DNA of 53,676 bases from Pseudomonadota bacterium (GTDB lineage Bacteria; Pseudomonadota; Gammaproteobacteria; Burkholderiales; Casimicrobiaceae). The translations under genes and the position numbers were made by a program. How positions within the stretch are numbered: the first letter of the stretch is position 1; every line of letters starts with the position of its first letter. The notes under the pieces are model-generated. The model searched no databases. It was not told the origin of the DNA and saw only the letters and a program-made list of their open reading frames with translations. Shown one piece after another: positions 20,943 through 37,219 of the stretch. The stretch is from the NCBI GenBank assembly GCA_018241765.1, contig JAFEDD010000014.1, positions 1 through 53,676 of the forward strand, written 5' to 3'.

Positions 20943-21737
20943 TCAGTAGCCAAGCGCCGCGGCCGTGACCAAGCCCGCTTCCAGCGTGAACTTGCCGGCC
21001 GCGATGCCGGCCTCCATCGAAGCGCGCGGCACCTTCGCAAAGCGCGCCACCTCACCGTCCTGATTGCTCGGTTCGAGCGCGTTCGGCACCGTCGCCCGAT
21101 ACCAGTCGATGCGCTCGCTGATGTAGCCGCCGACGCCGTCCGTGGTCGGGCGATGGATATGCACGACGCCGCCCCATTCGAGCCCGAAGAGTTGCTCGAT
21201 GCGCAGCCCCGCCTCCTCCCAGGTCTCGCGCTCCAACGCGCGCTCGGGCGTGTCGACGGCCGTCACCATGCCGCCCATCAGCGTGTCCCACTGGCCCGGG
21301 TCGTTCGCCTTGTCCAGCGCGCGCTGCTGAATCCAGAATTGCCCGTCGGAGGTCTGCCCGACCAGATGCACCGCGCGCGTGCGAAGCCCGAGCGGCCGCA
21401 CGGCGGCGCGCTCGACGCTGCCCAGCACATGGCCGCGCACGTCATACACCGGCAACTGCTCGTTGCGCCACACATGCGCAAAGCCAAGGTCCCGCATCGC
21501 CAGCGCGACGCGGGCGAGGCTCTCGGTCAGATTGCCGTCGATGCACCAGCCGGCGCTCGTGTCACGCAGCGGCGTCAGGTTCTGAAAACTGAAGCTGTGC
21601 GCGATCTGGCGCAGGAGCTTCGGCTCGGCGTCACCGATCTCGACGCCGCCCCACGCGATGGGCACCCGCGCGCGCAGCGGCGGCTGGTCGGCTTCGGTGC
21701 GCAGGAGGCGCACCCACTCGGGGACGGCGTGCAGCAT
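20943..21737 (-). CDS. Nudix hydrolase with DUF4743-type N-terminal domain
   Basis: This 264-residue protein has an N-terminal domain (residues 1-110) of the DUF4743 / Tnr3-like type and a Nudix domain after it. The Nudix box is GMVTAVDTPERALERETWEEAGL-like around residue 155; the first Glu of the consensus GX5E is Asp, while REXXEEXG is intact, so metal binding should be kept. Homologues are associated with thiamine diphosphate or related pyrophosphate hydrolysis. It lies 15 nt after the flavoprotein gene, in the same direction, which suggests co-transcription, but a link to phosphonate metabolism is not obvious. Confidence 0.85.
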   Translation of the reverse strand: MLHAVPEWVRLLRTEADQPPLRARVPIAWGGVEIGDAEPKLLRQIAHSFSFQNLTPLRDTSAGWCIDGNLTESLARVALAMRDLGFAHVWRNEQLPVYDVRGHVLGSVERAAVRPLGLRTRAVHLVGQTSDGQFWIQQRALDKANDPGQWDTLMGGMVTAVDTPERALERETWEEAGLRIEQLFGLEWGGVVHIHRPTTDGVGGYISERIDWYRATVPNALEPSNQDGEVARFAKVPRASMEAGIAAGKFTLEAGLVTAAALGY

Positions 21738-21752
21738 GGCGGGACAGGCGGT

Positions 21753-24173
21753 TCAACGCACGGGTTCGGGCCAGCGATCATAGAGCTTCACGGCCACCGC
21801 TTCACCCCAAAGTTCGATCGTCGCCACCGTACCCGCATGCGCGCGCAACGCCGCCGCCCCGCGCACATAGCCCAGCCCGACGCAGGCGCCGGCGAGCGGG
21901 CTCCAGCCGACCGAGGAAAGCTCCCCGACGCTATGCCCGTCGAGCAGGATCGATTCGCCTCCCCACGCATACCGCGATGCCTCGTCGAACACCACGCTGA
22001 CGAGCTTCTTTCGCAATGGCTCCGAGCGCGCGGCGAGGAGCGCCGCGCGACCGATGAAGTCGACGCCCTTGTCGCACTTCACGGCAAAGCCAAGCCCCGC
22101 CTCCCACGGCGTCTCGTCCGGCCCGAGCTCCGCGCCCCAGGCCCGCCGCCCCTGCTCGATGCGCAGCGCATCGAGCGCGTAGTAGCCGGCATCGACGAAC
22201 CCGAACTCGGCGCCCGCCTCGTGCAGCGCCAGGTAGACGTGCCGCGCCATCTCGATCGGAACGTAGAGCTCGTAGCCCGGACCGCCGACATAGCTCATGC
22301 GCGCCGCGCGCACGCGGGCGTGACCGAGGTCGATCTCGCGCGTCGTCGAAAACGGCAGCGCCGAGCGCGACAGATCGTCCGGCGTCAGCCGCCCGAGCAA
22401 TTCCGCCGCGTTCGGCCCCATCACCGAGAGCACGGCGTACTGGTTGGTGACATCGGTCAGCACGGCGAACTCGTCGCGCCCGATGTGACGGCCGATCCAG
22501 TCGGCGTCTCGCGTGGTCTGCGCCGAGCCGGTGATGATCAGGAAGCGCTCGGCGCCGAGTCGCACCACCGTGAGATCACTCTCGAAACCACCGCGCGTGT
22601 TGAGCATCGCCGTGTAGACCATGCGATCGACGGCGACGTCGATGTCGTTCGCACACAGCCGTTGCAGCACGGCGAGCGCGTCGCGTCCCTGCAGCAGAAG
22701 TTTCGAGAACGAGGTCTGGTCGTAGATCGCGACGGCCTCGCGGGTCGCCCGCTGCTCGGCCATCACCCAGGGCAACCAGCCGGGCGTGTCGAGCGTGTCG
22801 GCAGGACGCTCGGCGCCGGTCGGTTTGAAATAGTTGACGCGCTCCCACCCGTTCTTGCTGCCGAACTCGCCCCCTTTCGCCGCCAGCAGGTCATAGAGCG
22901 GCGACGTGCGCAGCGGCCGCGCGGTGAGCAGTTCCTGCCGTGGCCAGCGCATCGCGTAGTGCAGCCCGAGCGTCTCCGCCGTGCGCGCGGCCAGCGCGCG
23001 GCGATTGCCGCTGAAGCCGCCGAAGCGACGGATGTCGACCTCCCACCAGTCGCCCGGCGCCTCACCGCCGACGATCCACTCGGCGAGCACGCGACCGGCG
23101 CCGCCCGAATTGGCAATGCCCGCGGAATTGAAACCCGCCGCCACGAAATAGTTGCGCAGTTCCGGCGCTTCACCGAGGATGAAGTTGCCGTCGGGCGTGA
23201 AACTCTCGGGCCCGTTCAGCAGCATCTTGATGGCGGCCGTCTCGAGACACGGCGTGCGGTGCAGCGCGTTTTGCAGCAGGATGTCGAACTGCTCCCAGTC
23301 CTCACCCAGAAGCTCGAACTGAAAGCTCGCCGGAATCGGGTCCACGCTCCACGGCTTCGCCTTCGGTTCGAAGCCGCCCATCAGCAGGCCGCCCACCTCC
23401 TCCTTGTAGTAGATGAACCCGTCGGGGTCGCGCACGACCGGCATCGAAGGTGTCACGCCCTCGATGCGATCGGTGACCAGATAGAAGTGCTCGGCCGAAT
23501 AGAGCGGCACGTTGACGCCGGCCAACCGGCCAAACTGACGCGCCCATTGCCCGGCGCAGTTGACCAGCACCTCGCAGCGCACTTCCCCCAGGCTCGTGCG
23601 CACGCCGGTGACCCGGCCGTGCTCTTGCAGCACGCCAGTCACCTCCACCCCCTCGACGATGCGAACGCCGCCATTGCGCGCGCCCTTGGCGAGCGACATG
23701 GCCAAGTCGGCCGGGTTCGCCTTGCCGTCGCCCGGAATCCAGATGGCGCCGGTCAGATCATCGACGCGCAGAATCGGCACGCGCTCGCGCACCTCGGCGG
23801 GCGAGAGCTCATGCACTTCGACGCCGAAGGCGCGCGCGAGCGCGATCTGCTTTTTCAGCACGCGCCGCCGCGCTTGCGTCGCCGCGACGTTCACGCTGCC
23901 GCATTGGCGCCATCCGGTCGCGAGCCCCGTTTCCGCCTCGAGCGAAGCGTAGAGCCCGATCCCGTACTGGCTCATCATCGTCATCGAGCGGTTCGGTCGC
24001 ATCTGCCCGATGAGGCCCGCCGCGTGCCACGTCGTGCCGCAGGTGAGCCGCCCCTGCTCGAGCAAGAGCACGTCGCGTTTGCCGAGCTTGGCCAGGTGAT
24101 AGGCGGTCGAACAGCCGGCGATGCCGCCGCCGACGATGACGATTTCCGCGTGATCCTTGAGTTGCGTCGTCAC
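21753..24173 (-). CDS. FAD-dependent N-methyl amine dehydrogenase-like protein with GcvT domain
   Basis: This ~806-residue protein is built like sarcosine and dimethylglycine dehydrogenases. An N-terminal DAO domain has the dinucleotide motif VGGGIAGCS and GTTWHAAGL, whose His is the covalent FAD site in DMGDH/SARDH. The C-terminal ~380 residues are a GcvT-like tetrahydrofolate domain (YDQTSFSKLLLQG, MLNTRGGFESDL, GGPGYELYVP, GLGYVRG). Family chemistry is oxidative N-demethylation passing a one-carbon unit to folate. It lies 38 nt downstream of the EamA gene in the phosphonate run, so an N-methylated aminophosphonate is a plausible substrate (inference). The start may be GTG 24173 (GGAGGAG five bases upstream) or ATG 24191. 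Confidence 0.82.
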   Translation of the reverse strand: MTTQLKDHAEIVIVGGGIAGCSTAYHLAKLGKRDVLLLEQGRLTCGTTWHAAGLIGQMRPNRSMTMMSQYGIGLYASLEAETGLATGWRQCGSVNVAATQARRRVLKKQIALARAFGVEVHELSPAEVRERVPILRVDDLTGAIWIPGDGKANPADLAMSLAKGARNGGVRIVEGVEVTGVLQEHGRVTGVRTSLGEVRCEVLVNCAGQWARQFGRLAGVNVPLYSAEHFYLVTDRIEGVTPSMPVVRDPDGFIYYKEEVGGLLMGGFEPKAKPWSVDPIPASFQFELLGEDWEQFDILLQNALHRTPCLETAAIKMLLNGPESFTPDGNFILGEAPELRNYFVAAGFNSAGIANSGGAGRVLAEWIVGGEAPGDWWEVDIRRFGGFSGNRRALAARTAETLGLHYAMRWPRQELLTARPLRTSPLYDLLAAKGGEFGSKNGWERVNYFKPTGAERPADTLDTPGWLPWVMAEQRATREAVAIYDQTSFSKLLLQGRDALAVLQRLCANDIDVAVDRMVYTAMLNTRGGFESDLTVVRLGAERFLIITGSAQTTRDADWIGRHIGRDEFAVLTDVTNQYAVLSVMGPNAAELLGRLTPDDLSRSALPFSTTREIDLGHARVRAARMSYVGGPGYELYVPIEMARHVYLALHEAGAEFGFVDAGYYALDALRIEQGRRAWGAELGPDETPWEAGLGFAVKCDKGVDFIGRAALLAARSEPLRKKLVSVVFDEASRYAWGGESILLDGHSVGELSSVGWSPLAGACVGLGYVRGAAALRAHAGTVATIELWGEAVAVKLYDRWPEPVR

Positions 24174-24211
24174 GATCTCCTCCTCCCTCATGAGTTCCTG
24201 TTGAGGCCCTC

Positions 24212-25075
24212 TCAGGCCATCCGCAATGCCATGACGCCAGCGACGATGGTGCAGGTGGCGACGATGCGCCGCATGCTGAAGCGTTCACGCAGCAACCAGG
24301 TGCCGAGCAGCGCGGCAAACAACACCGAGGTTTCGCGCAGCGCCGCCACCGTGGCCACCGGCGCGCGCGTCATCGCCCACAGCGCAATGCCGTAGGAGCC
24401 GAGCGAGGCGACGGCGCCACCGGCCGCGAGCGGCCAGCGCGCTCGCGCATAGGGCCAGGCTGCGGCGCCACGGCGGTACAGCACGAGCAGCGCGAAGGGC
24501 CAGCCATCGAGCACGAAGAGCGCGACGACGTATTGCAGCGCGTTGCCGGAGGCGCGTGCGCCCAGCGCATCGATGACGGTATAGACGGCGATGACCACGG
24601 CGTTGGCCAGTGCGAACAAGGTCGCGCGCCGGTTGTCGAGCGCGTGCCGACTGAGGCCGAGCACCAGCACGCCGACACAGATGCCAACGACGCCCGCCCA
24701 CGCCAGCGGCCGCAGCGTCTCGCCCACCGTGCCGAGCGCCGACATCGCGACCAGCATCGGCGCCACGCCACGCATCAGGGGGTAGGTGAGCCCGAGGTCA
24801 CCATGCTTGTAGGCGCCGGTCAACGCGATGTAGTAGCCGATGTGGATGACCACCGAGGCGAGAATGTACGGCCACGCAGACGATGCGGGCAGCCCGACGA
24901 TGGCAAGCAGCGGCAGCGCGATCAGCGAGCCGAGCAGATGAATCAGCGCGGTGTCGAGCGCCTTGTCGGTGCTGGACTTCACGAGCACGTTCCAGCTCGC
25001 GTGCAGCAGCGCGCCGACGAGCACCGCGAACACGACCGGCCAGGTCAGCGCGAGTTGGGCCGTGGGGCCGCTCAC
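24212..25075 (-). CDS. EamA/DMT family transporter
   Basis: This 287-residue protein has ten hydrophobic segments in two EamA repeats (ALLHASWNVLVK at the first, LRETSVLFAALLGTWLLRERF at the second), the classical drug/metabolite transporter layout. Members usually export or exchange small metabolites at the inner membrane. The GTG start lies inside the stop codon of the PhnZ-like gene (GTGA at 25075-25072), so it is translationally coupled to it. Its place between the HD oxygenase and the flavoprotein suggests transport of an aminophosphonate or its product. Confidence 0.85.
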   Translation of the reverse strand: MSGPTAQLALTWPVVFAVLVGALLHASWNVLVKSSTDKALDTALIHLLGSLIALPLLAIVGLPASSAWPYILASVVIHIGYYIALTGAYKHGDLGLTYPLMRGVAPMLVAMSALGTVGETLRPLAWAGVVGICVGVLVLGLSRHALDNRRATLFALANAVVIAVYTVIDALGARASGNALQYVVALFVLDGWPFALLVLYRRGAAAWPYARARWPLAAGGAVASLGSYGIALWAMTRAPVATVAALRETSVLFAALLGTWLLRERFSMRRIVATCTIVAGVMALRMA

Positions 25076-25626
25076 TCAGGGCACACGAGAGCCACGTTGC
25101 GCGCGCGCTCGAGGAAATGCTCGAGCGGTAGGGTCACGCGTCCGGCGATCTTCGCCTGATCGTCCCAGCGGCGCAGGCGCAAGGCCTCGGTGGCGCCCGG
25201 CAACGCTAGAAAGGCGCTCGCCTCGTCACCGGTGAACGCCCCGCCCTGCAGCGCGAGGCTGCGCATGGAGTCATCGGAGAGCGTCGCTCGATAGCCATCA
25301 TCGATGGCGCAGAGGTAGCGCTTGGCATCGACGTGCAGCTTGATCGGATCGAGCACACGGGCATCGAAGAGTCCGCGCAGCGGCCCGAGCGCGCGATATT
25401 GATGCTGATCGTCGACACCCTGCAACGTCGGCGTCGCACCCAGATCGTGCACGAGGTGCCCAAGGTCGTGCAAGAGCGCCGCCGTCACCAGCGCATCGCT
25501 GGCGCCTTCGGCCTCGGCGAGCGCGGCCGTCTGCAACGCATGCTCGAGTTGCGTGACCGGCTCGCCAGCGTATTGCTCGTGCCCGCGCCGCGCGAAGAGA
25601 TCGGCAATCCCGTCGAAATCGAGCAC
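25072..25626 (-). CDS. PhnZ-like HD-domain protein of phosphonate operons
   Basis: This 184-residue protein is the HD-domain protein associated with phosphonate degradation operons. It keeps residues that matter in PhnZ, the di-iron oxygenase that converts (R)-2-amino-1-hydroxyethylphosphonate to glycine and phosphate: Tyr19 and Glu22 in QYAGE, His29, His53-Asp54, His75, His98, Lys102 in AKRYL, and Asp155/Asp156 in RRWDDQAK. A strong ribosome binding site (GGAG, seven bases) precedes the GTG. It lies 3 nt after phnY. The usual partner, the AEP alpha-hydroxylating Fe(II)/2-oxoglutarate enzyme, is not in the window, so its substrate must come from elsewhere or differ. Confidence 0.85.
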   Translation of the reverse strand: MLDFDGIADLFARRGHEQYAGEPVTQLEHALQTAALAEAEGASDALVTAALLHDLGHLVHDLGATPTLQGVDDQHQYRALGPLRGLFDARVLDPIKLHVDAKRYLCAIDDGYRATLSDDSMRSLALQGGAFTGDEASAFLALPGATEALRLRRWDDQAKIAGRVTLPLEHFLERARNVALVCPE

Positions 25627-25629
25627 CGA

Positions 25630-27090
25630 TCAACTCCAGGGCAGGGTGTAGGTCTTCAGGTTGGTGAAGCTCTTCATGGCTTCCTGCACCCCTTCCTTGT
25701 AGCCCAGGCCGGAGTCCTTGATGCCGCCGAACGGTGTCAGCTCGAGGCGATAGCCCGGCACCTCGCGGATGTTGACGGTGCCGACGTCGAGCTCGCTGAC
25801 GAAGCGCGTGATGTAGTCGAGGCGGTTGGTGCAGACCGAGCTCGACAGCCCGAACGCGGTCCCGTTCGAGATGCGAATGGCGTCCGCGATGTCACGGAAC
25901 GCGATGATCGGCGACACCGGGCCGAAGGTTTCCTCGCGCACGACGGTCATCGCCGGGTCGACGCGATCGATGACGGTCGGCGAATAGAGCGCGCCACGGC
26001 GTTCGTTGCCGACCAGCAGGCGTGCGCCCTGCGTCACCGCTTCGTTGACGCGCGCCTCGAACAGTCGCGCGGCCGGCTCGTCGATGACGGTGCCCATGTC
26101 CACCGCCGCATCCGAGGGGTCGCCGTAGCTCCAGGCGCGGGTTTTCGCGACGACCTGCTCGGTGAACCGGTCGAGCACCGCCTCGTGCACCAGCATGCGC
26201 TTGACCGCCGTGCATCGCTGGCCACTGTTCTTGTACGACCCCTGCACGGCCAGTGTCGACGCTTCATCGATGTCGGCATCCTCCATGACGATGATCGGAT
26301 CGTTGCCGCCCAGTTCGAGCACCACACGCCGATAGCCGGCCGTGCGCGCGATGTACTTGCCGATGGCAACGCCACCGGTGAACGTGATCAGATCGACGTG
26401 TTCGTTGGTCAAGAGTTCGTCGGCAATCTCGCGCGGGTCGCCGGTGACGATCGACAGCATTTCCGGCGGCAACCCCGCTTCGTAGAGGAAGTCAGCGAGC
26501 AAAATGGCCGAGAACGGCACCTTCTCGGAGGGCTTCAGCACCATGCGGTTGTTGGTGGCAACACTGGGCACCACCTTGTGCGCGACCTGATTCATCGGGT
26601 GGTTGAACGGCGTGATGGCGCTGATGACGCCAAGCAGCGGGGCGCGCTGCGTGAACACGCGCCGGCGCTTGCCGTGATGCGTCAGGTCGCAGCTGAAAAT
26701 CTGCCCGTCGTCGCGCAACGCTTCGTTGGCACCGAACAGAAAGACATCGCTCACGCGCCCTGCTTCGTAGAGCGCATCTTTTATGCAAAGCCCGGCCTCG
26801 GCGCAGATCAGCGCCGCGACTTCGGCCTTGCGTCGCTCGGCGATGGCCGCCGCACGGTTGAGGATGGCAGCGCGCTCGTAGCGGCTCAGGTTGGGCTTGT
26901 AGCGCCGGCTGACCGCAAAGGCGTCGCGGATTTCTTCGACCGTCGCCTTCGGTACGGACCCGATGGTTTCCCCGGTGTAGGGGTTGTGTACCGCGATGAC
27001 GCGATCGCCGCTGCGATCGGCCCCGATGCGCTTGCCGTGGATGCGCATCGCGTTCAGATGGTGATCGAGGATGTACTGCTGGATGCTCAT
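25630..27090 (-). CDS. phnY: Phosphonoacetaldehyde dehydrogenase
   Basis: This 486-residue NAD-dependent aldehyde dehydrogenase should oxidise phosphonoacetaldehyde to phosphonoacetate. It has VVLELGGNDP with the general-base Glu and SGQRCTAVKR with the catalytic Cys. The Arg just before the Cys, the His in ITPFNHPMN, and the Arg in PGYRLELTPFGG match the phosphonate-binding residues known for Sinorhizobium PhnY. These set it apart from the second aldehyde dehydrogenase at 37220. I start at the ATG at 27090; a TTG at 27108 is possible. It lies between phnA and the PhnZ-like gene. Confidence 0.92.
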   Translation of the reverse strand: MSIQQYILDHHLNAMRIHGKRIGADRSGDRVIAVHNPYTGETIGSVPKATVEEIRDAFAVSRRYKPNLSRYERAAILNRAAAIAERRKAEVAALICAEAGLCIKDALYEAGRVSDVFLFGANEALRDDGQIFSCDLTHHGKRRRVFTQRAPLLGVISAITPFNHPMNQVAHKVVPSVATNNRMVLKPSEKVPFSAILLADFLYEAGLPPEMLSIVTGDPREIADELLTNEHVDLITFTGGVAIGKYIARTAGYRRVVLELGGNDPIIVMEDADIDEASTLAVQGSYKNSGQRCTAVKRMLVHEAVLDRFTEQVVAKTRAWSYGDPSDAAVDMGTVIDEPAARLFEARVNEAVTQGARLLVGNERRGALYSPTVIDRVDPAMTVVREETFGPVSPIIAFRDIADAIRISNGTAFGLSSSVCTNRLDYITRFVSELDVGTVNIREVPGYRLELTPFGGIKDSGLGYKEGVQEAMKSFTNLKTYTLPWS

Positions 27091-27144
27091 GACGTGTCGG
27101 AAAGGCAAGAGGGAGGACGGCGTTGGCGCCGCGGTGTCGCAGTC

Positions 27145-28407
<1,263 letters not shown>

Positions 28408-29184
28408 TCAGGCCACCCGCTTTTCACGGTTGGCGACGGTTTCGGGTCCGCGCGTCTGACGGCGCAGGTCGTTCGCGATGGTGCGCTCCTTGCTCTCCAT
28501 CACGTGGTCATACATGGCGCGACCGGCGGCCTCAGGGTCGCCCGAGGCGATCGCCTTCAGGATCTGGCGATGCTCACCCGCAGAGATCGGCATCAGCCAG
28601 CCATCGGCAAGGTTCAGGCGACGAAACAGCGCCAGTTCCTTGATGAGCTTGCGATAGATCGCGGTGAGCTTGCGGTTGCCCGCCATCTCGACCAGACGAT
28701 CATGGAATTTCAGGTTGAGCAGGTGATAGGTGCGCGTGTCACCCGACTTCACCGCCCGCTCCATCGCATCGACGAGCGATTTGATTTCCTTGTGCTGCGC
28801 TGTCGTCAACGATTTCGCCAACTGGCGACCGACCAGTTCATCCATCGCCGCGCGCAGATCGAATATCTCGATCGCCTCATCGATCGGGATGTCGCGCACG
28901 AAGACGCCACGATTCTTCTCCGTGCGTACGAGCCCCGCCTCGTCGAGCATGCGAAAGGCTTCACGGATGGGCCCGCGCGAAACGCCCATCTTCTCCGCCA
29001 GTGCCGTTTCGACCAGCTTGGTGCCGGGCGCGTATTCGCCAGCGAGAATCGCGCGCTCGATGTCTTGCTGGACAAGCACGGTGAGCGAGCTCGTCTGCAG
29101 CAAAGCGATCGTGGCCAGCGAATCGGCCGTGATCGACGCCACGGCAGGCGGCAGCACCGGCGGGAGCACTTCAGCGGTCGCCAT
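28408..29184 (-). CDS. GntR (FadR-type) phosphonate utilisation regulator
   Basis: This 258-residue regulator has a GntR winged helix (about 35-105: VLVQQDIERAILAGEYAPGTKLVETALAEKMGVSRGPIREAFRML) and a FCD-type helical ligand domain (DLRAAMDELVGR, LLNLKFHDRLVEMAGN, EHRQILKAIASGD) that normally binds a metal and small acid. It matches the phosphonate-associated GntR group of Burkholderia-type operons. It starts the leftward operon and is divergent from the transporter operon. The inverted repeats at 29251-29298 are its likely operator, so it probably represses both directions and its own gene. A pathway intermediate would be the inducer (inference). Confidence 0.9.
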   Translation of the reverse strand: MATAEVLPPVLPPAVASITADSLATIALLQTSSLTVLVQQDIERAILAGEYAPGTKLVETALAEKMGVSRGPIREAFRMLDEAGLVRTEKNRGVFVRDIPIDEAIEIFDLRAAMDELVGRQLAKSLTTAQHKEIKSLVDAMERAVKSGDTRTYHLLNLKFHDRLVEMAGNRKLTAIYRKLIKELALFRRLNLADGWLMPISAGEHRQILKAIASGDPEAAGRAMYDHVMESKERTIANDLRRQTRGPETVANREKRVA

Positions 29185-29318: not shown

Positions 29319-29481
29319 TTGCGTACGACGGCGCGAGGGGACGTACCTGCGGATATCGATTCCGCGTTCACGCTCCAGCTGGGGAAAGGTGTACAAGAAT
29401 GAGGACGAACAGTCCCGCCGCCATTCCCGGCGTTGTCACGAGACTGCAATCGCCATGCTTGTTTTCAAAAGGAGCCATCCC

Positions 29482-30519
29482 ATGCGTTTACCCGACCTGT
29501 TCCGCCTCGGCGCCATCGCGAGCGCCGTCGCCTTTGCGTCCCTCGGATATGCCCAAAAAACCCAACTGACGGTCTACACCGCGCTCGAAACCGATCAGAT
29601 CAAGGCCTACGAGCAGGGGTTCTACAAGGCCGTGCCGGATATCGAGATCAAGTGGGTGCGCGATTCGACCGGCGTCGTCACCGCCAAACTGCTCGCCGAG
29701 AAGGCCAACCCGCAGGCTGACGTCATCTGGGGTGTGGCCGCATCGAGCCTCGCGCTGCTCGACCAGCAGGGCATGCTCGACCCCTACGCGCCCGCCAACC
29801 TCGCCGCCATCGCGCCGCAATACCGCGACCCGAAGAACCCGCCGGCGTGGTGGGGCATGGATGTCTACGGCGCGACCATTTGCTACAACACGGTCGAGGG
29901 AAAGAAGAAGAACGTTCCCAAGCCAGAATCCTGGGCCGACCTCCTGAAGCCGGCGTACAAGGGACAAATCGTGATGCCGAACCCGGCGTCCTCCGGCACC
30001 GGCTACTTCGACGTCGTCGCATGGCTCCAAATGATGGGCGACGACAACGGCAAGGGCGGCGGCTGGAAGTACATGGACAGCCTGCACGACAACATCGCGC
30101 AGTACACGCACTCCGGCTCCAAGCCTTGCAACATGGCCGCCGCCGGTGAATACGTGGTCGGCATCACGTTCGAATATCGCGGCCACAAGAACAAGGCGCA
30201 GGGCGCGCCGATCGATCTGGTGTTCCCGAAGGAGGGGCTGGGATGGGATCTCGAATCCTTCGCCATCCACAAAGGCACCAAGAAACTCGCGGCCGCAAAG
30301 AAGCTCGCCGACTGGGCCTCGAGCAAGGACGCGATGGCGCTCTACGGCAAGAACTTCGCGGTGACGGCGCAACCGGGCGTGGCCGAGAAACTCGCCAATA
30401 TCCCGGCCGACTATGAGTCGCGCCTGATCAAGATGAACTTCAACTACGCGGCAGCCAACCGCGAGCGCATCCTCGCCGAGTGGAACAAGCGCTACGACGT
30501 GAAGTCGGAGAAGAAGTAA
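29482..30519 (+). CDS. 2-aminoethylphosphonate ABC transporter substrate-binding protein
   Basis: The 345-residue protein has a signal peptide (cleavage after GYA near residue 27) and the fold of iron/AEP-type family 1 binding proteins: LTVYTALETDQIKAYEQGF, WVRDSTGVVTAKLLAEK, ADVIWGVAASSLALLDQQGML and MPNPASSGTGYFDVVAWLQMMG. These match the binding protein of the PhnSTU2-type AEP importers in Burkholderia. It should capture AEP in the periplasm. GGAG seven bases before the ATG at 29482 fixes the start; longer in-frame starts hide the signal peptide. It is the first gene of the rightward operon. Confidence 0.9.
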   Translation: MRLPDLFRLGAIASAVAFASLGYAQKTQLTVYTALETDQIKAYEQGFYKAVPDIEIKWVRDSTGVVTAKLLAEKANPQADVIWGVAASSLALLDQQGMLDPYAPANLAAIAPQYRDPKNPPAWWGMDVYGATICYNTVEGKKKNVPKPESWADLLKPAYKGQIVMPNPASSGTGYFDVVAWLQMMGDDNGKGGGWKYMDSLHDNIAQYTHSGSKPCNMAAAGEYVVGITFEYRGHKNKAQGAPIDLVFPKEGLGWDLESFAIHKGTKKLAAAKKLADWASSKDAMALYGKNFAVTAQPGVAEKLANIPADYESRLIKMNFNYAAANRERILAEWNKRYDVKSEKK

Positions 30520-30604
30520 CCGAAGCCCATGCACCGCGGCCGCGCGACCTGCGTGCGGCCGCAGTGAGGTCTTGCTCCGCCACTCCACCGAACATCGCTG
30601 CCCG

Positions 30605-31684
30605 ATGACTGCCGATCCGTTTCTCTCGCTGCGCAACATCTACAAGACGTTCGGCAGCTTCACCGCCCTGTCCCAGATCAACCTCGATATCGCACGCGGC
30701 GAGTTCATCTGCTTCCTCGGCCCCTCGGGTTGCGGCAAGACGACGCTCTTGCGCATCATCGCCGGACTCGAAACGCAGAGCTCGGGCACGCTGACGCAAG
30801 GCGGGCGAGACATCTCGCGCCTGCCTCCGGCCGAGCGCGACTACGGCATCGTCTTTCAGAGCTACGCGCTGTTCCCCAACCTCACCGTCGCCGCCAACGT
30901 CGCCTATGGCCTCGTCAACCGCAAGACGCCGCGCGCCCAGGTCGAGGCCCGCGTCAGCGAGCTGGTGAAACTGGTCAGACTGCCGGGCAGCGAGGGCAAG
31001 TATCCAAGCCAGCTCTCGGGCGGGCAGCAACAACGCATCGCGCTCGCTCGCGCGCTCGCGACGTCGCCCGGTCTGCTGTTGCTCGATGAGCCGCTCTCCG
31101 CGCTCGACGCGCTCGAGCGCGTCCGGTTGCGCCAGGAAATCCGGGCGCTTCAGCAAAAGCTCGGCATCACCACGATCATGGTGACGCACGACCAGGAAGA
31201 GGCGCTCTCCATTGCCGATCGCATCGTGGTCATGAACCACGGCGTCATCGAACAAGTGGGCACCGCGCTCGAGGTGTATCGCGAGCCGGCGACGCCATTC
31301 GTGGCCGATTTCGTCGGCAAGGTCAATGTGCTGCCCGGCCGCCTCGAAGGCGAGCACCTGCACGTCGGCAGCTTCCGGCTGCCGGCGCGTGAGCGCGTCG
31401 ACACCGCCCGTGACGTGAAGATCTATCTGCGCCCCGAGGATGTCCTCGCGCGCCCCGCCGTCAGCGGAGCCGGCTTCGCAGCGGACGATCCGCACATGTT
31501 CGAGGCGGTCATCGAAAAGATCGAATTTCTCGGCTCGTTCTGCCACGTGCACGTGCGCAGTGACGCCTTCCACCCGCACCGGCTGATCGTCTACCTCTCA
31601 CTCAATTTCCTGAGCGAACAGTCGCTCGCCGTTGATTCTCCGCTCCGGCTACGCCTGATGCCCGAGCGCATGCGCGTGTTCTAA
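30605..31684 (+). CDS. 2-aminoethylphosphonate ABC transporter ATP-binding protein
   Basis: The 359-residue ATPase has a Walker A GPSGCGKTT, Q-loop SYALFPNLTV, signature LSGGQQQRIALARAL, Walker B LLLLDEPLSALD and a switch His in MVTHDQEEAL. After ~235 residues a TOBE-type domain follows (FVGKVNVLPGRL, IYLRPEDV), typical of iron/AEP/spermidine importers. It energises the fused permease encoded next, 17 nt downstream. I use the ATG at 30605; a TTG at 30572 has GAGGT only one base away and is unlikely. Confidence 0.92.
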   Translation: MTADPFLSLRNIYKTFGSFTALSQINLDIARGEFICFLGPSGCGKTTLLRIIAGLETQSSGTLTQGGRDISRLPPAERDYGIVFQSYALFPNLTVAANVAYGLVNRKTPRAQVEARVSELVKLVRLPGSEGKYPSQLSGGQQQRIALARALATSPGLLLLDEPLSALDALERVRLRQEIRALQQKLGITTIMVTHDQEEALSIADRIVVMNHGVIEQVGTALEVYREPATPFVADFVGKVNVLPGRLEGEHLHVGSFRLPARERVDTARDVKIYLRPEDVLARPAVSGAGFAADDPHMFEAVIEKIEFLGSFCHVHVRSDAFHPHRLIVYLSLNFLSEQSLAVDSPLRLRLMPERMRVF

Positions 31685-31701: not shown

Positions 31702-33417
31702 ATGGAAGCCTCTCTGTCCCTCGCTGCGGCGCCCGTTCGCCAGAAGACCCATTGGACCGAGCGCATCGCGCACGTGGTGCTCGCCGGCATCGCGCTGGTG
31801 CTGCTGTGCTTTCTGGCGATGCCGCTGGCGGCGATTCTCGTCAAATCGGTGCAAGGCAAGGACGGCGAACTGGTGTGGTTCGCACACTTCATCGACTACG
31901 CCCGCACGCCATCGCTGTTCAGCAGCCTGTGGAACAGCATCTGGGTGTCGGGCCTGGTCACCTTGATCACCGTCCCTCTCGCTTTCATCTTTGCCTATGC
32001 GCTTCACCGCTCGTGCATGCCGTTCAAGAAACTGCTGCGCGGCATCACGCTGATTCCGCTCCTCGCGCCGTCGCTGCTGTCGGCGATCTCGCTGATCTAC
32101 TGGTTTGGCAATCAGGGCGTGCTGAAGTCACTGCTGCAGGCGCTCGGCTTCGATCAGATCTACGGCGCCGTCGGCATCGTGTTTGCCGAGTGCTTTGCCA
32201 CCTTTCCGCACGCGCTGATGATTCTCGTCACCGCGCTCACGCTGGCCGATGCACGGCTCTATGAAGCGGCGGACGCGCTCGGCACCAGCAAGCTGCGCAA
32301 GTTCTTCACCGTGACCCTGCCCGGCGCCAAGTACGGCATCATCTCGGCGGCACTGGTCACCTTCACGTTGGTCATCACCGACTTCGGCATCCCGAAGGTG
32401 ATTGGCGGCAGCTTCAACGTGCTGGCCACCGATGTGTTCAAGCTCGTCATCGGCCAGCAAGACTTCGCCAAAGGCGCCGTCGTCGCCATCTTGCTGCTGT
32501 GCCCGGCGGTGCTCACCTTCGCGGTGGATCACTTCGTGAGCCGCAAACAAACGGCGATGCTCACGGCGCGCGCCGTTCCCTTCCGACCGCGCCCATCACG
32601 GGGGTTCGACGCGCTGATGACGGGCTACTGCGTCTTCATCGCGATCATGATGCTGGCCATGCTCGGCATGGCGATCTTCGCTTCGTTCGCGACGTTCTGG
32701 CCGTACAACCTGACGCCAAGCCTCAAGCACTACATCTACGGCCTCATCGACAACGAGGTCGCCGAGGGCTTCGTCAACAGCCTGAAGATGGCGTTTGGTA
32801 CGGCAACCTTTGGCACCGCCATGGTGTTCCTCGGCGCCTATCTGCTGGCGAAGACGAAGGGCGCATCGTGGGTTCGCACACCGGTGCGCCTGCTCGCGAT
32901 GCTGCCCATGGCGGTTCCCGGCCTCGTCCTCGGCCTCGGCTACATCTTCTTCTTCAACGCGCCGGAGAACCCGCTGAACGGGCTCTACCACACGATCACG
33001 CTGCTCACGCTGTGCACCATCGTGCACTTCTACACGACGGGGCACCTCACGGCGAGCACCGCGCTGAAGTCGCTCGACGACGAGTTCGAGGCGGTCGGCG
33101 CTTCGCTGAAAGTCCCCTGGTACAAGACCTTCTTCCGCGTCACGCTGCCGATCTGCTCACCCGCCCTGGTCGACATCGCGCGCTATTTTTTCGTCAATGC
33201 GATGACGACCATCTCGGCCGTCGTCTTCCTCTATTCGCCGGAGACCAAGGTCGCCTCGATCGCCATCCTGAACATGGACGAAGCGGGCGAGATCAGTCCG
33301 GCGGCCGCGATGGCGGTGTTGATCGCTGCAACCTGCGCGGTCGGCACGCTGCTCTTTTCCGCGCTTGGCTGGTGGGTGGATCGTCGTGCCCAGGCGTGGC
33401 GCACGAGTTCACGTTAG
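31702..33417 (+). CDS. 2-aminoethylphosphonate ABC transporter permease, fused dimer
   Basis: This 571-residue protein carries two complete permease units in one chain, each with about six helices. Both have EAA loops: EAADALGTSKLRKFFTVTLP in the first half and AVGASLKVPWYKTFFRVTLP in the second. This fusion is the PhnU2 type of AEP importer and removes the need for a separate PhnV. It forms the inner-membrane channel for the binding protein and ATPase encoded upstream. It begins 17 nt after the ATPase gene, and phnW follows after 9 nt, so all four are one operon. Confidence 0.92.
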   Translation: MEASLSLAAAPVRQKTHWTERIAHVVLAGIALVLLCFLAMPLAAILVKSVQGKDGELVWFAHFIDYARTPSLFSSLWNSIWVSGLVTLITVPLAFIFAYALHRSCMPFKKLLRGITLIPLLAPSLLSAISLIYWFGNQGVLKSLLQALGFDQIYGAVGIVFAECFATFPHALMILVTALTLADARLYEAADALGTSKLRKFFTVTLPGAKYGIISAALVTFTLVITDFGIPKVIGGSFNVLATDVFKLVIGQQDFAKGAVVAILLLCPAVLTFAVDHFVSRKQTAMLTARAVPFRPRPSRGFDALMTGYCVFIAIMMLAMLGMAIFASFATFWPYNLTPSLKHYIYGLIDNEVAEGFVNSLKMAFGTATFGTAMVFLGAYLLAKTKGASWVRTPVRLLAMLPMAVPGLVLGLGYIFFFNAPENPLNGLYHTITLLTLCTIVHFYTTGHLTASTALKSLDDEFEAVGASLKVPWYKTFFRVTLPICSPALVDIARYFFVNAMTTISAVVFLYSPETKVASIAILNMDEAGEISPAAAMAVLIAATCAVGTLLFSALGWWVDRRAQAWRTSSR

Positions 33418-33426
33418 GAGTACCCG

Positions 33427-34548
33427 ATGGACCGCGACCACATTTTGCTGACCCCAGGACCGCTGACAACCACCTTGCAGACCAAGCTCGCGATGCTGCG
33501 CGACTGGGGCTCGTGGGATGGCGCCTTCAATGCCGTCACCGCGCGCGTCCGCAAGAGCCTGCTCGCCATCGTGCACGGCGAGGACTCGCACGTCGTGGTG
33601 CCGTTGCAGGGCAGCGGCACGTTCAGCGTCGAGGCGGCAGTTGCGACGCTGGTGCCGCGCGATGGACACGTGCTGGTGCTCGACAACGGCGCCTACTGCA
33701 AGCGCGCGGCCCGGCTGACCTCGATGATGGATCGGCGCTGCACGGTGCTCCCCTTTGCCGATCACGAGGCGGTGTCGCCTGCGGCGGTGCGCCAGGCGCT
33801 CGTCAACGATTCCAGCATCACGCACGTCGTGCTGATCCATTGCGAGACCGGCGCCGGTGTGCTCAACCCCTTGCAGGAGGTGGCCGGCCTCTGCGCCGAA
33901 CATGGCCGCGGCCTCATCATCGATGCCATGAGTTCGTTCGGCGCCATTCCGATCGACGCCCGCAGCACCCGCTTCGATGCCCTCATCGCTGCCAGCGGCA
34001 AATGCCTGGAGGGCGTACCCGGCATGGGTTTCGTGTTCATCCGCAAGGCCGTGCTCGATGCCTGCGCCGGACGCAGCCAATCGCTGGCGATGGATCTCCA
34101 TGACCAATACGTCTACATGGAGAAGACGGGCCAGTGGCGCTTCACACCGCCCACCCACGTCGTCGTCGCCCTCGCCGAGGCAATCGCGCAGTTCGAGGCC
34201 GAAGGCGGTCAGAGCGCCCGTCTGGCGCGATACACGCAGAACTTCCGCACGCTCGTCGACGGCATGGCTGCGCTCGGCTTCAAGCCCTTCCTCGCGCCCG
34301 ACATTCAAGCGCCGATCATCGTCACCTTTCACGCCCCGGCGCACCCCAACTACGACTTCAAGCGCTTCTACGAAGCGGCCAAGGCGCACGGCTTCATCCT
34401 CTATCCGGGCAAGCTCACGCAGGTCGAGACTTTCCGCGTCGGCTGCATCGGCGCCATCACGGCCGTCGAAATGGAACAGGCAGTGCACGCCGTGGCGCTC
34501 GCGCTGAAGGATCTCGGCATTCCGTCCGGCGTCCCCGCTGGCGGGTGA
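33427..34548 (+). CDS. phnW: 2-aminoethylphosphonate--pyruvate transaminase
   Basis: PhnW transfers the amino group of AEP to pyruvate, giving phosphonoacetaldehyde and L-alanine. The 373-residue protein starts with [10 protein letters not shown], has [23 protein letters not shown] for the phosphate cup, [12 protein letters not shown] with the PLP-pyridine Asp, and [13 protein letters not shown] with the Schiff-base Lys. All match PhnW of the aspartate aminotransferase superfamily class V. AGGAG lies before the ATG. Phosphonoacetaldehyde from this step feeds phnY and phnA of the divergent operon; no phosphonatase (phnX) is in the window. Confidence 0.95.
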
Positions 34549-34615: not shown

Positions 34616-35983
34616 ATGGCCACATCCACCCCGAAAGAACATCCCGCACTTGCCGCCTTCCGCAAGTCCAACGCCGGCAAAGTGAAGGTCGCCGTCAGCG
34701 ACATCGATGGCATCCTGCGCGGGAAATACCTGCACCGTGACAAATTCATCGGTGCAGCAGACAGCGGATTCGGTTTCTGCGACGTCGTGTTCGGCTGGGA
34801 CAGTCACGATGTCTGCTATGACAACACGACCGTGACCGGCTGGCAGCACGGCTATCCCGATGCCACCGCCAAAATCGATCTCGACACCCACCGCAAAGTG
34901 CCCTGGGACGGCGACATCGACTTCTTCCTCGCCGAGTTCGTCAACGCCGACGGCTCGCCGCACCCCGTCTGTCCACGGCAGACACTGAAGCGCGTATTGA
35001 AACGCGCCGAGAAGCTCGGTGTGCGTGCGATGACGGGCATGGAATTCGAGTGGTTCAACTTCGTGGAAACGCCGCACAGCTGGGCCGCGAAGCAGGGCGT
35101 CGGGCCGACGCCGTTGACGCCTGGCATGTTCGGCTACTCGCTGTTGCGCATGGCCGACAATCGCCCATTCTTCTCCGCGCTGATGGATGAAATGCCGCGT
35201 ATCGGCGTGCCGCTCGAAGGGCTCCACACCGAGACCGGCCCCGGCGTTTTCGAGGCGGCCATCGCCTTCAGCGAAGCCCTCGAACAAGCCGACCGTGCGA
35301 TTCTGTTCAAGACCGGTGCCCGCGAGATCGGCAAACGCTTCGGCATCATGCCGAGCTTCATGGCGAAGTGGAACCAGCAGTATCCGGGCTGCAGCGGGCA
35401 TTTGCACCAAAGCCTGTCCGACGGCAAGAAAAATCTCTTCTACGACGGCAAGCACCCGCGCTTCATGAGCAAACTCTTCGAGAGTTTCCTCGCCGGGCAG
35501 ATCGCCTGCCTGATGGAATTCGCACCGATGTTCTGGCCGACCGTCAATAGCTACAAGCGTCTGGTCGACGGCTTCTGGGCCCCCGTGAAACCGACCTGGG
35601 GCATGGACAACCGCACCGCGAGCTTCCGCGTGATCGCGGGCTCCGCAAAGGCAACACGGCTGGAGACGCGCTGCCCTGGTGCCGACGTCAATCCGTACCT
35701 CGCAGCCGCCGCGCTGCTCGCTGCCGGCCTCCACGGCATCGAAAAGGGCTTGAAGCTCACCGCGCCGCCCATCACCGGCACCAACCATGGCGGCGAACAC
35801 ATTGCGCGCGCCCCGCGCAGCCTGATCGAGACGACGCGACTGTTCCGGCAGTCCGACATCGCCCGCGACTGGCTCGGCGACACCTTCGTCGATCACTTCG
35901 CCGCCACCCGCGAGTGGGAGTGGCGGCTGTGGCAAGACGCGGTGACCGACTGGGAACTGAAGCGCTACTTCGAGATCATCTGA
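34616..35983 (+). CDS. Glutamine-synthetase-like gamma-glutamyl ligase
   Basis: This 455-residue protein has the catalytic parts of the GS fold: MEFEWFNF (metal Glu pair), LHTETGPGVFEAAI, GCSGHLHQSL (metal His), NSYKRLV, NRTASFRVI, and RLETRCPGADVNPYLA. The N-terminal beta-grasp starts with VKVAVSDIDGILRGKY. It lacks the adenylylation-loop motif of housekeeping GlnA. Such GS-like enzymes glutamylate amines other than ammonia (PuuA, IpuC, GlnA4 types). Here it sits 67 nt after phnW and before an alcohol and an aldehyde dehydrogenase, so an amino alcohol or aminophosphonate may be its substrate (inference). True glutamine synthesis cannot be excluded. Confidence 0.85.
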   Translation: MATSTPKEHPALAAFRKSNAGKVKVAVSDIDGILRGKYLHRDKFIGAADSGFGFCDVVFGWDSHDVCYDNTTVTGWQHGYPDATAKIDLDTHRKVPWDGDIDFFLAEFVNADGSPHPVCPRQTLKRVLKRAEKLGVRAMTGMEFEWFNFVETPHSWAAKQGVGPTPLTPGMFGYSLLRMADNRPFFSALMDEMPRIGVPLEGLHTETGPGVFEAAIAFSEALEQADRAILFKTGAREIGKRFGIMPSFMAKWNQQYPGCSGHLHQSLSDGKKNLFYDGKHPRFMSKLFESFLAGQIACLMEFAPMFWPTVNSYKRLVDGFWAPVKPTWGMDNRTASFRVIAGSAKATRLETRCPGADVNPYLAAAALLAAGLHGIEKGLKLTAPPITGTNHGGEHIARAPRSLIETTRLFRQSDIARDWLGDTFVDHFAATREWEWRLWQDAVTDWELKRYFEII

Positions 35984-36015
35984 CGGCCTGCGCTCCAGCA
36001 CTCGCAGTGCGGCGT

Positions 36016-36055
36016 GCGCGTCCTGAGCGACGCGCCGCGCCGCCTGTTTTTCTTT
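36016..36055 (+). terminator. Candidate terminator or attenuator after the GS-like gene
   Basis: GCGCGTC (36016-36022) pairs with GACGCGC (36029-36035) around a CTGAGC loop. A T-rich run (TTTTTCTTT, 36047-36055) follows after 11 nt. The T-run is further away than in a classical terminator, so partial attenuation between the ligase and the alcohol dehydrogenase is more likely than a full stop. Confidence 0.38.
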
Positions 36056-36077
36056 CGATACGTCCGCGAATCCGACC

Positions 36078-37211
36078 ATGACCATTTCCTCTTTTTCCTT
36101 CCCCACCACCATCAAGTTCGGCGTCGGCGCCCGCAAGCTGGTCGCCGAGCACCTGCGCGAGCAAGGGTTGAAGCGACCTCTGATCGTGACCGACCGCGCA
36201 CTGGGCGCGCTGCCGGTGCTCAGCGAATTCAAGAGCACGCTGAGCGGCCTCGATGTCGCCGTCTTCTCCGGTGTGTTCGGCAACCCCACCTGCGCCCAGG
36301 TGATGGAGGGCGCGCAGGCCTTCAAGGCGCACCGCGCGGACTGCGTCATCGGTTTCGGCGGCGGCGCGGCACTCGACGTCGCGAAGATCGTCGGCGTTGC
36401 CGCAACGCACGACGGCGACATCCTCGAATACGTCTGGGATCACCCCAACGTGCGCCCCATCGTCCATGCGCTGCCCTACTTCGTCGCGCTGCCGACGACC
36501 TCGGGCACCGGCTCCGAGGTCGGCCGCTCCTCTGTCGTCAGCGAGAACGACACCCACCTGAAGCGCGTCGTCTTCAGCCCCAAGATCCTCGCCCGCTGCG
36601 TGTTCGCCGACCCGGAGCTGACCGTCGGACTGCCGCCCGCCGTCACCGCCGCAACCGGCATCGATGCGCTGACTCACAACGTCGAAAGCTATCTCTCGCC
36701 GGCCTATCACCCGCTGTGCGACGGCATCGCGCTCGAAGGCACGCGCATCGCCGCGCGCGCGCTGGCGACCGCGGTGCGCGAGCCCGCCAACCTCGCCGCT
36801 CGCGGTGACATGATGATGGCCTCGATGATGGGCGCCATCGCCTTCCAGAAGGATCTCGGCGCGGTGCACTCCTGCGCGCACGCGCTGGGTGCCGTCAACG
36901 ATCTGCACCACGGCCTCGCCAACGCGTTGATGATCGACACCGTGCTCGCATGGAACCACGACGTCGTGCCGGCCAAGTTCGATGAACTGGCGCATGTCTG
37001 CGGCGTTGCCGGCGGCGGCGATGCGTTCGTGCCATGGCTGCGCGAGCTGAAGGCGACGATTGGCATCCGCGGCCCGCTGTCGGCGCACGGCGTCACGGCG
37101 GCGCACCTGCCACGATTGGTCGAAATCGCCACCCGCGATGGCTGCCATCAAACCAACCCGCGACCGTGCACGGCGGCCGATTTCGAGCGCCTCTTTCTCG
37201 CCGCGCTGTAG
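36078..37211 (+). CDS. Iron-containing (group III) alcohol dehydrogenase
   Basis: This 377-residue enzyme has GFGGGAALDVAK for NAD(P) binding, PTTSGTGSEVGRSSVV, and the metal site in GIDALTHNVESYLSP plus GAVHSCAHALGAVNDLHHGLANA with its conserved histidines. Related enzymes reduce phosphonoacetaldehyde to 2-hydroxyethylphosphonate in phosphonate biosynthesis (PhpC type). In this catabolic setting it could run in reverse and feed hydroxyethylphosphonate into phnY/phnA, or oxidise a glutamylated amino alcohol made by the upstream ligase. Sequence alone does not decide. It is followed after 8 nt by the second aldehyde dehydrogenase. Confidence 0.87.
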   Translation: MTISSFSFPTTIKFGVGARKLVAEHLREQGLKRPLIVTDRALGALPVLSEFKSTLSGLDVAVFSGVFGNPTCAQVMEGAQAFKAHRADCVIGFGGGAALDVAKIVGVAATHDGDILEYVWDHPNVRPIVHALPYFVALPTTSGTGSEVGRSSVVSENDTHLKRVVFSPKILARCVFADPELTVGLPPAVTAATGIDALTHNVESYLSPAYHPLCDGIALEGTRIAARALATAVREPANLAARGDMMMASMMGAIAFQKDLGAVHSCAHALGAVNDLHHGLANALMIDTVLAWNHDVVPAKFDELAHVCGVAGGGDAFVPWLRELKATIGIRGPLSAHGVTAAHLPRLVEIATRDGCHQTNPRPCTAADFERLFLAAL

Positions 37212-37219
37212 GAGCCCTC

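Follow-up and report, generated by a model that had tools for sequence, protein, structure and literature searches.

N-Methyl-2-aminoethylphosphonate (N-methyl-AEP) is described in the accessible part of PMC10590968 as frequent in nature and as having no entry into catabolism through PhnW, the known enzymes that act on it releasing methylamine. These enzymes, PbfB, PbfC and PbfD, are reported there never to occur together in one cluster, and the authors reasoned from the same pattern of exclusion that is used below. In dimethylglycine dehydrogenase (DMGDH), according to the portion of PMC5082570 available, an N-methyl carbon is oxidised and then trapped by tetrahydrofolate (THF). Here we describe a gene for a DMGDH-type flavoprotein, which joins a flavin adenine dinucleotide (FAD) domain to a GcvT domain, at positions 21753-24173 on the minus strand of a 53,676-nucleotide stretch of contig JAFEDD010000014.1 (assembly GCA_018241765.1; Casimicrobiaceae, Burkholderiales); this whole stretch is referred to as the window. 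The gene stands in a run of phosphonate (phn) genes, and its linkage to such genes is not due to chance. We give slightly better than even chances to the reading that its product demethylates N-methyl-AEP to AEP and 5,10-methylene-THF, as an activity ancillary to AEP catabolism.

No published report of an FAD/GcvT class in phosphonate catabolism was found in the literature searched, the coverage of which stopped short of subscription papers and of supplements, including that of the Pbf paper; the accessible parts of PMC10132767 and PMC10590968 do not describe one either. The survey in PMC10590968 would probably miss such a class, because, as far as its accessible part tells, sequences from complete genomes were retained only if they resembled PbfB, PbfC or PbfD.

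Results

Recurrence of the gene with phosphonate genes

An earlier note on this DNA had said in advance that homologues showing no preference for the vicinity of phosphonate genes would count against its proposal; the subfamily turned out to be tied to phnA, phnY and phnW in Burkholderiales- and rhizobial-type bacteria. A scan of genome contigs gave 120 confirmed loci, the best 80 of which (58-82% identical to the window protein) came, judging by their titles, mostly from Burkholderiales and other betaproteobacteria, with three from alphaproteobacteria. Linkage was counted in the 56 loci whose flank upstream of the gene reached 5 kb or more (24 of the 80 had less than 5 kb and were excluded), and phn neighbours were called using identity cut-offs of our choice. 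At least one core phn gene (phnA, Y, W, R, S, T or U) was present in 46/56 loci; 41 of these held three or more, and three held phnY alone. Since a phnX gene in a further locus (L036) passes TIGR01422, the number of phn-linked loci rises to 47/56. The family of that gene is found in four loci and is phnX in both members tested (L023 and L036). Because phnX-type loci are found alongside phnA/phnY loci, the phnWYA and phnWX pathways both carry the FAD/GcvT gene. The gene order at homologous loci was often the same as in the window. In three loci (L026, L043 and L066), EamA or Phn-HD alone was nearby, and no phn-type gene was seen near the copies in L037, L062, L073, L074, L081 and L084, whose genomes hold PhnW (in the case of L084, as a contig-end fragment only). 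Two copies away from a phn cluster (L037, 12445-14082; L041, 6881-8587) lie tail to tail with a gene for a GMC oxidoreductase (in L041, as judged by eye).

A search of plasmid proteins matched 384 records, of which we opened 20, chosen from the best and from the spread of the matches; one record in the 60-80% identity band was left out of the opened set. Homologues at about 56-59% identity came from Sinorhizobium, Ensifer, Shinella, Aminobacter and one Roseateles record. All ten opened loci at this level had phn genes within 12 kb, nine of them both phnW and phnA; the flank of the tenth (L122) ends in an AEP transporter and part of phnY. Among them is pSymB of Sinorhizobium meliloti 1021, where the gene (1060597-1062921) is ~3 kb upstream of phnWAY. 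As this is the strain cited for PhnWAY and an established AEP degrader (PMC8316502, accessible part), the question of the substrate is directly testable. In two of these loci (Sinorhizobium sp. RAC02, L122, at 16022 on the minus strand, and Shinella, L123, at 20191 on the plus strand), the phn-linked copy is accompanied, a few kb away, by a second FAD-GcvT gene whose product shares 43-44% identity with the window protein.

More distant relatives (35-51% identity) behaved differently: phnA, phnY or phnW was found in 0/21 of their loci, five of which (L095, L096, L111, L113 and L117) had one flank shorter than 2 kb. When wider thresholds were applied, a single locus (L128) gave a match, a lone ABC ATPase gene 10.3 kb away and 50.4% identical to PhnT. 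A chance neighbourhood was rejected on this comparison (46/56 against 1/21 at equal thresholds). The Fisher value was computed with 0/21 for the distant set. Fisher values overstate the difference, because the loci include near-copies and the ten plasmid loci include several Sinorhizobium/Ensifer strains, two of them almost identical, so that they are not independent. In five of ten distant plasmid stretches, genes for electron-transferring flavoprotein (ETF), folD or purU stood beside the homologue, which is what folate-linked demethylation with ETF would lead one to expect.

In a 52-row tree, in which 19 of the 80 window-clade sequences were used, the phn-linked proteins formed a single clade of 32 rows with support of 97/98. 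Two lineages make up the clade, one of Burkholderiales type and one rhizobial, the latter including Reyranella and L098. The label "phn" took in L037, L074 and L084, which are not beside phn genes, and L103, which sits at the end of its contig and shows no phn gene, while L092 (a 3 kb contig) and L098 were labelled "other". The deep position of DMGDH, dimethylglycine oxidase (DMGO), L134 and L136 is unsure, their branches being long.

Co-occurrence and mutual exclusion across genomes

Co-occurrence was followed in 40 related genomes, 17 of them from the genus of the window. Within the genus, the orthologue was present in 9/17 genomes, and PhnA exceeded its cut-off in the same nine (Fisher p 4e-5; the gene of G003 is partial). 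In the family, G017, G020 and G023 hold both the orthologue and PhnA; G022 holds a 56% homologue together with PhnA pieces that are split and below the cut-off, and G018 a 63% fragment, with no PhnA found. PhnW exceeded its cut-off in 66/79 gene-bearing genomes (42/49 and 24/30), with fragments in three more, compared with 21/200 genomes sampled from the order.

The FAD/GcvT gene excludes PbfC- and PbfD1-type genes, as judged by two hidden Markov models, TIGR03329, which we infer to be the PbfC model, and TIGR03364, as which Acinetobacter baumannii PbfD1 is annotated according to the accessible part of PMC10590968. The 21 PhnW-bearing genomes of the 200-genome sample comprised two with the FAD/GcvT gene, six with TIGR03329, six with TIGR03364 and seven with none, with zero overlap. 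Over all PhnW genomes compared, PbfC/PbfD1-type genes were present in 0/44 with the FAD/GcvT gene (42 gene-bearing genomes plus two of the sample) and in 12/19 without it; the sampling of the two sets differed, both contain kin, and PbfB was outside the comparison. TIGR03329 matched 0/79 gene-bearing genomes; the built-in control genomes also gave 0, but the model did match 8/200 in the order sample. TIGR03364 matched 1/49 gene-bearing genomes (G248), in which PhnW was not found. The gene thus behaves like the Pbf genes, recurring in phnWX and phnWYA clusters and excluding the PbfC/PbfD1 types.

The protein and its conserved residues

The coordinates given in the earlier note were right, and the strand, which it had omitted, is minus: the coding sequence runs from a GTG at 24173, preceded on its 5' side by a purine-rich ribosome site (14 letters), to 21753 and encodes 806 amino acids. 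If translation began instead at an ATG in frame at 24191, the product would have 812 amino acids. An open reading frame (ORF) is also open on the plus strand over 21753-24173, and was taken as spurious. The protein unites in one chain the four domains of the DMGDH/DMGO type, each above its Pfam cut-off: DAO (11-366), FAO_M (370-424), GCV_T (426-697) and GCV_T_C (722-797). The TWHAAG motif that the note had read, as it had the folate domain, is indeed present, its histidine being H50. Among solved structures, the highest sequence scores went to DMGDH of rat (461.5 bits) and of human (458.1 bits), followed by Arthrobacter DMGO (350.8 bits). An AlphaFold2 model built from a 21-row alignment had a mean pLDDT of 80.1, with values below 50 at 252-254, 258-267, 272-286 and 386-419, which form part of the flavin domain; a Foldseek search with it ranked rat DMGDH first (TM 0.91), and the top eight matches were all DMGDH or DMGO. 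The protein falls far below the PbfC and PbfD1 models (TIGR03329, 32.1 bits against a cut-off of 632.8; TIGR03364, 60.4 against 285.1).

Seven residues, H50, H229, Y255, D533, Y628, E635 and R671, showed no variation where covered among 80 sequences of the window clade and 10 rhizobial ones, and align with H48, H225, Y259, D552, Y651, E658 and R694 of DMGO. By alignment column, the flavin-linking His (H50), the His/Tyr dyad (H229, Y255) and the folate Asp (D533) are therefore all in place, and the FAD is probably held covalently. At two further columns, by our own assignment, A52 and I353 resemble human DMGDH and not the oxidase. The accessible part of PMC5082570 links these residue types to low oxygen reactivity, and the likeness to human DMGDH suggests a dehydrogenase that uses ETF or a quinone. 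K151, in a PGDGK motif, marks both phn lineages: it was found in 79/80 and 10/10 phn-clade sequences and in 0/22 others with a residue at that column. Clade residues of this kind were not accepted as proof of phosphonate binding. R62 and S68 were dropped as special residues, because the rhizobial lineage has A and I there and they are not general.

Neighbouring genes in the window

On the minus strand, the run consists of PhnR, PhnA, PhnY, Phn-HD, EamA and the FAD/GcvT gene, in that order. The GntR/FCD regulator PhnR_burk (28408-29184) scored 326.1 bits with TIGR03338 (cut-off 271.5), phosphonoacetate hydrolase PhnA (27145-28383) 580.7 bits with TIGR02335 (cut-off 407.55), phosphonoacetaldehyde dehydrogenase PhnY (25630-27108) 849.1 bits with TIGR03250 (cut-off 635.65), and the Phn-HD oxygenase family member (25072-25626) 222 bits with TIGR03276 (cut-off 214.6). 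The EamA membrane protein (24212-25075) resembles TIGR03340, "phosphonate utilization associated", at 273.3 bits, slightly below the cut-off of 288.15. The earlier note had placed the flavoenzyme gene 38 nt behind an EamA exporter gene, itself coupled to a PhnZ-like gene within the phnA-phnY run; this arrangement stands (EamA overlaps the Phn-HD gene by 4 nt), whereas "exporter" is a guess from the family only. An EamA homologue is near the FAD/GcvT gene in 54/80 homologous loci. A Nudix hydrolase gene follows 15 nt downstream (20943-21737, minus); as its homologue (at least 45% identity) is found in 4/80 loci only, it is probably outside the pathway and was rejected as a member. The direct neighbours of the window gene are thus EamA and Nudix, and not those of a purU-mabO-folD operon of the 4-methylaminobutanoate oxidase (MABO) type. 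No 2-oxoglutarate oxygenase was noticed among the scanned cluster genes to accompany Phn-HD; the accessible part of PMC11203657 likewise considers, for Achromobacter, a PhnHD that has no PhnY*.

The divergent plus-strand side carries the AEP ABC transporter genes phnS2 (substrate-binding protein, 29479-30519, start approximate), PhnT2 (ATPase, 30572-31684) and PhnU2 (permease, 31702-33417), each above the cut-off of its curated model, followed by the AEP:pyruvate transaminase PhnW (33427-34548; TIGR02326, 490.7 bits, cut-off 400.8), and then genes for a glutamine-synthetase-like protein, an iron alcohol dehydrogenase (Fe-ADH), an aldehyde dehydrogenase (ALDH) and a HAD phosphatase; the ORF listing of the window covers positions beyond 9400. 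The GlnA-like, Fe-ADH and ALDH genes directly after phnW (34616-38593) resemble the ethanolamine gamma-glutamylation pathway (compare the accessible part of PMC10132767). GlnA-like and Fe-ADH genes also occur in L035, L043, L048, L051, L099, L101 and L098, and in L098 they adjoin two FAD-GcvT homologues. On a Salipiger plasmid (L132, 11058-26275), a distant homologue stands with genes for a phosphotransferase, ETF, folD, purU, glutamine synthetase, ALDH, Fe-ADH and serine hydroxymethyltransferase, a cluster that suggests folate-linked demethylation of N-methylated ethanolamines. A gene family in 23 loci, tested in L060 only (264-1940), is a Na/Pi cotransporter with a PhoU domain, often near phnY and Phn-HD or EamA, and perhaps exports surplus phosphate.

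Discussion

In the mechanism that we infer, which extends to the substrate, the C-N bond oxidised, the use of folate and the electron acceptor, covalent FAD would oxidise the N-methyl group of N-methyl-AEP (possibly also of N,N-dimethyl-AEP) to an iminium, and the GcvT domain would hand the methyl carbon to THF, yielding 5,10-methylene-THF and AEP. Electrons would probably exit via ETF. The AEP would be taken by PhnW and converted to phosphonoacetaldehyde, whose breakdown PhnY and PhnA (or PhnX) would complete. Demethylation of N-methyl-AEP is the best explanation because the residues of both the flavin and the folate sites are invariant.

Several observations weigh against it. The sequence does not fix the substrate and gives no proof of phosphonate binding, and the gamma-glutamylation-like module next to phnW points to a further class of possible substrates. 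In the folate motif of the window clade, G631, P632 and R676 replace a nearly universal E, an L and an aromatic Y/F, and the GcvT domain has diverged more than the FAD domain (within-clade identity 0.733 against 0.803, a divergence ratio of 1.36x, compared with 0.477 against 0.495 and 1.04x in the paralogues), so that folate coupling could be altered in this clade. Loss of the first Glu (G631) was not accepted as loss of folate binding, because the folate contacts, which we take to be the Tyr and the second Glu of the GcvT motif, are both retained in the window protein. Neither folD, purU nor ETF was listed in five annotated phn-linked plasmid stretches, for which the gene table is incomplete. 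PhnW was not found in 10/79 gene-bearing genomes, many of which are draft bins. Finally, three order-level genomes (G028, G030 and G035) have PhnA above the cut-off without the orthologue, and 7/21 phnW genomes lack any of the three flavoenzymes; the FAD/GcvT gene is therefore optional.

The altered motif and the faster divergence of GcvT are also what would be seen if the enzyme deaminated N-methyl-AEP, as PbfC and PbfD do, to phosphonoacetaldehyde and methylamine, with GcvT a relic or serving another role. It would then simply occupy the PbfC/PbfD1 slot, as it seems to do. We nevertheless regard deamination as unlikely: the folate-site residues D533, Y628, E635 and R671 are invariant (80/80 and 10/10), and PhnW, which demethylation needs, accompanies the gene in 66/79 genomes. 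Just as unlikely, in our judgement, is demethylation of an N-methylated ethanolamine that feeds the GlnA/Fe-ADH/ALDH module, the AEP genes being mere neighbours in a head-group regulon. The module in the window and the similar genes in seven other loci speak for this, as do such genes near the Salipiger relative with its ETF, folD and purU, and ethanolamine gamma-glutamylation has been reported in a marine bacterium (PMC10132767, accessible part). However, the Salipiger homologue falls outside the phn clade, and within 12 kb there was no GlnA-like or Fe-ADH match in 9/10 rhizobial-type loci (in the remaining one, there is a glutamine synthetase at 29%), while phn genes were present in 10/10.

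A role as sarcosine or dimethylglycine dehydrogenase, be it in housekeeping or in clearing N-methylglycines made by Phn-HD from N-methylated hydroxy-AEP, would agree with the nearest solved structures being DMGDH and DMGO, with Phn-HD in the operon, and with a search of the genome's own proteins that returned nothing but the FAD/GcvT gene and one GcvT-only match. We consider it rather improbable, since presence of the gene tracks phnA exactly within the genus, and no Phn-HD match was found in 14/45 phnA- or phnY-bearing loci (some with short flanks) or in the ten rhizobial-type loci. The linkage evidence would serve equally well for another N-alkyl aminophosphonate, such as N-methyl-hydroxy-AEP or a secondary amine like glyphosate, the exact substrate not being readable from the sequence; given that the accessible part of PMC10590968 names N-methyl-AEP as the candidate that is frequent in nature, we hold this to be the least probable of the alternatives.

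If N-methyl-AEP is indeed demethylated, a folate-linked enzyme would be a second chemical solution, in which the one-carbon unit is recovered and peroxide need not be formed, and would link the degradation of phosphonates with one-carbon metabolism in both Burkholderiales and rhizobia. Cells would probably benefit by eating methylated AEP too and keeping its methyl group. The chances seem to us evenly balanced that this is a fourth class of enzymes for N-methyl-AEP, recruited independently and present in Burkholderiales and in rhizobia including S. meliloti 1021 and recognisable by K151, which demethylates, sends the methyl group to the folate pool and leaves the nitrogen on AEP for PhnW.

Compared with known systems, the window protein shares with DMGDH (rat, 4pab/4p9s; human, 5l46) the domain order, the fold, the flavin-linking His column, the His/Tyr dyad, the folate site and Ala52/Ile353. 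It is only 33-34% identical to DMGDH and differs at the columns of DMGDH His104 and His398 (Ser68 and Asn355 here) and Glu575 (Asp533). DMGO of Arthrobacter globiformis (1pj5), 29-30% identical, has its H225, Y259, D552, Y651 and E658 conserved here, but at the two columns that may form an oxygen gate it carries Pro50 and Val362 in place of the Ala and Ile of the window protein. PbfB, PbfC and PbfD are likewise PF01266 flavoenzymes of phnWX and phnWYA clusters (PMC10590968) and probably share the metabolic slot of the window protein. They differ, as the earlier note had said of the reported N-methyl-AEP oxidases: in the accessible part of that paper, FAD appears non-covalent in the three purified enzymes (PbfC, PbfD1 and PbfD2), the ethyl C-N bond is oxidised with release of methylamine, and a term search of the main text found neither GcvT nor folate.

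One homologue, from a tobacco-root Arthrobacter, is flanked by purU and folD and shares 39.6% identity with the window protein. MABO, which we take to be an FAD-GcvT protein, differs from the latter in substrate and operon, and homologues in purU/folD settings (L136 and L133) fall outside the phn clade. Like the activity proposed here, the Paenarthrobacter enzyme demethylates a longer N-methyl amino acid and forms methylene-THF (PMC6214936). According to the accessible part of that paper, N-methyl-gamma-aminobutyrate (N-methyl-GABA) in nicotine breakdown is either demethylated by MABO to GABA and methylene-THF or deaminated by MAO, with methylamine released, and MABO adjoins the methylamine-forming oxidase. 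The nicotine pathway would be the nearest precedent in logic, with PbfB, PbfC and PbfD on the deaminating side and the window protein on the demethylating side.

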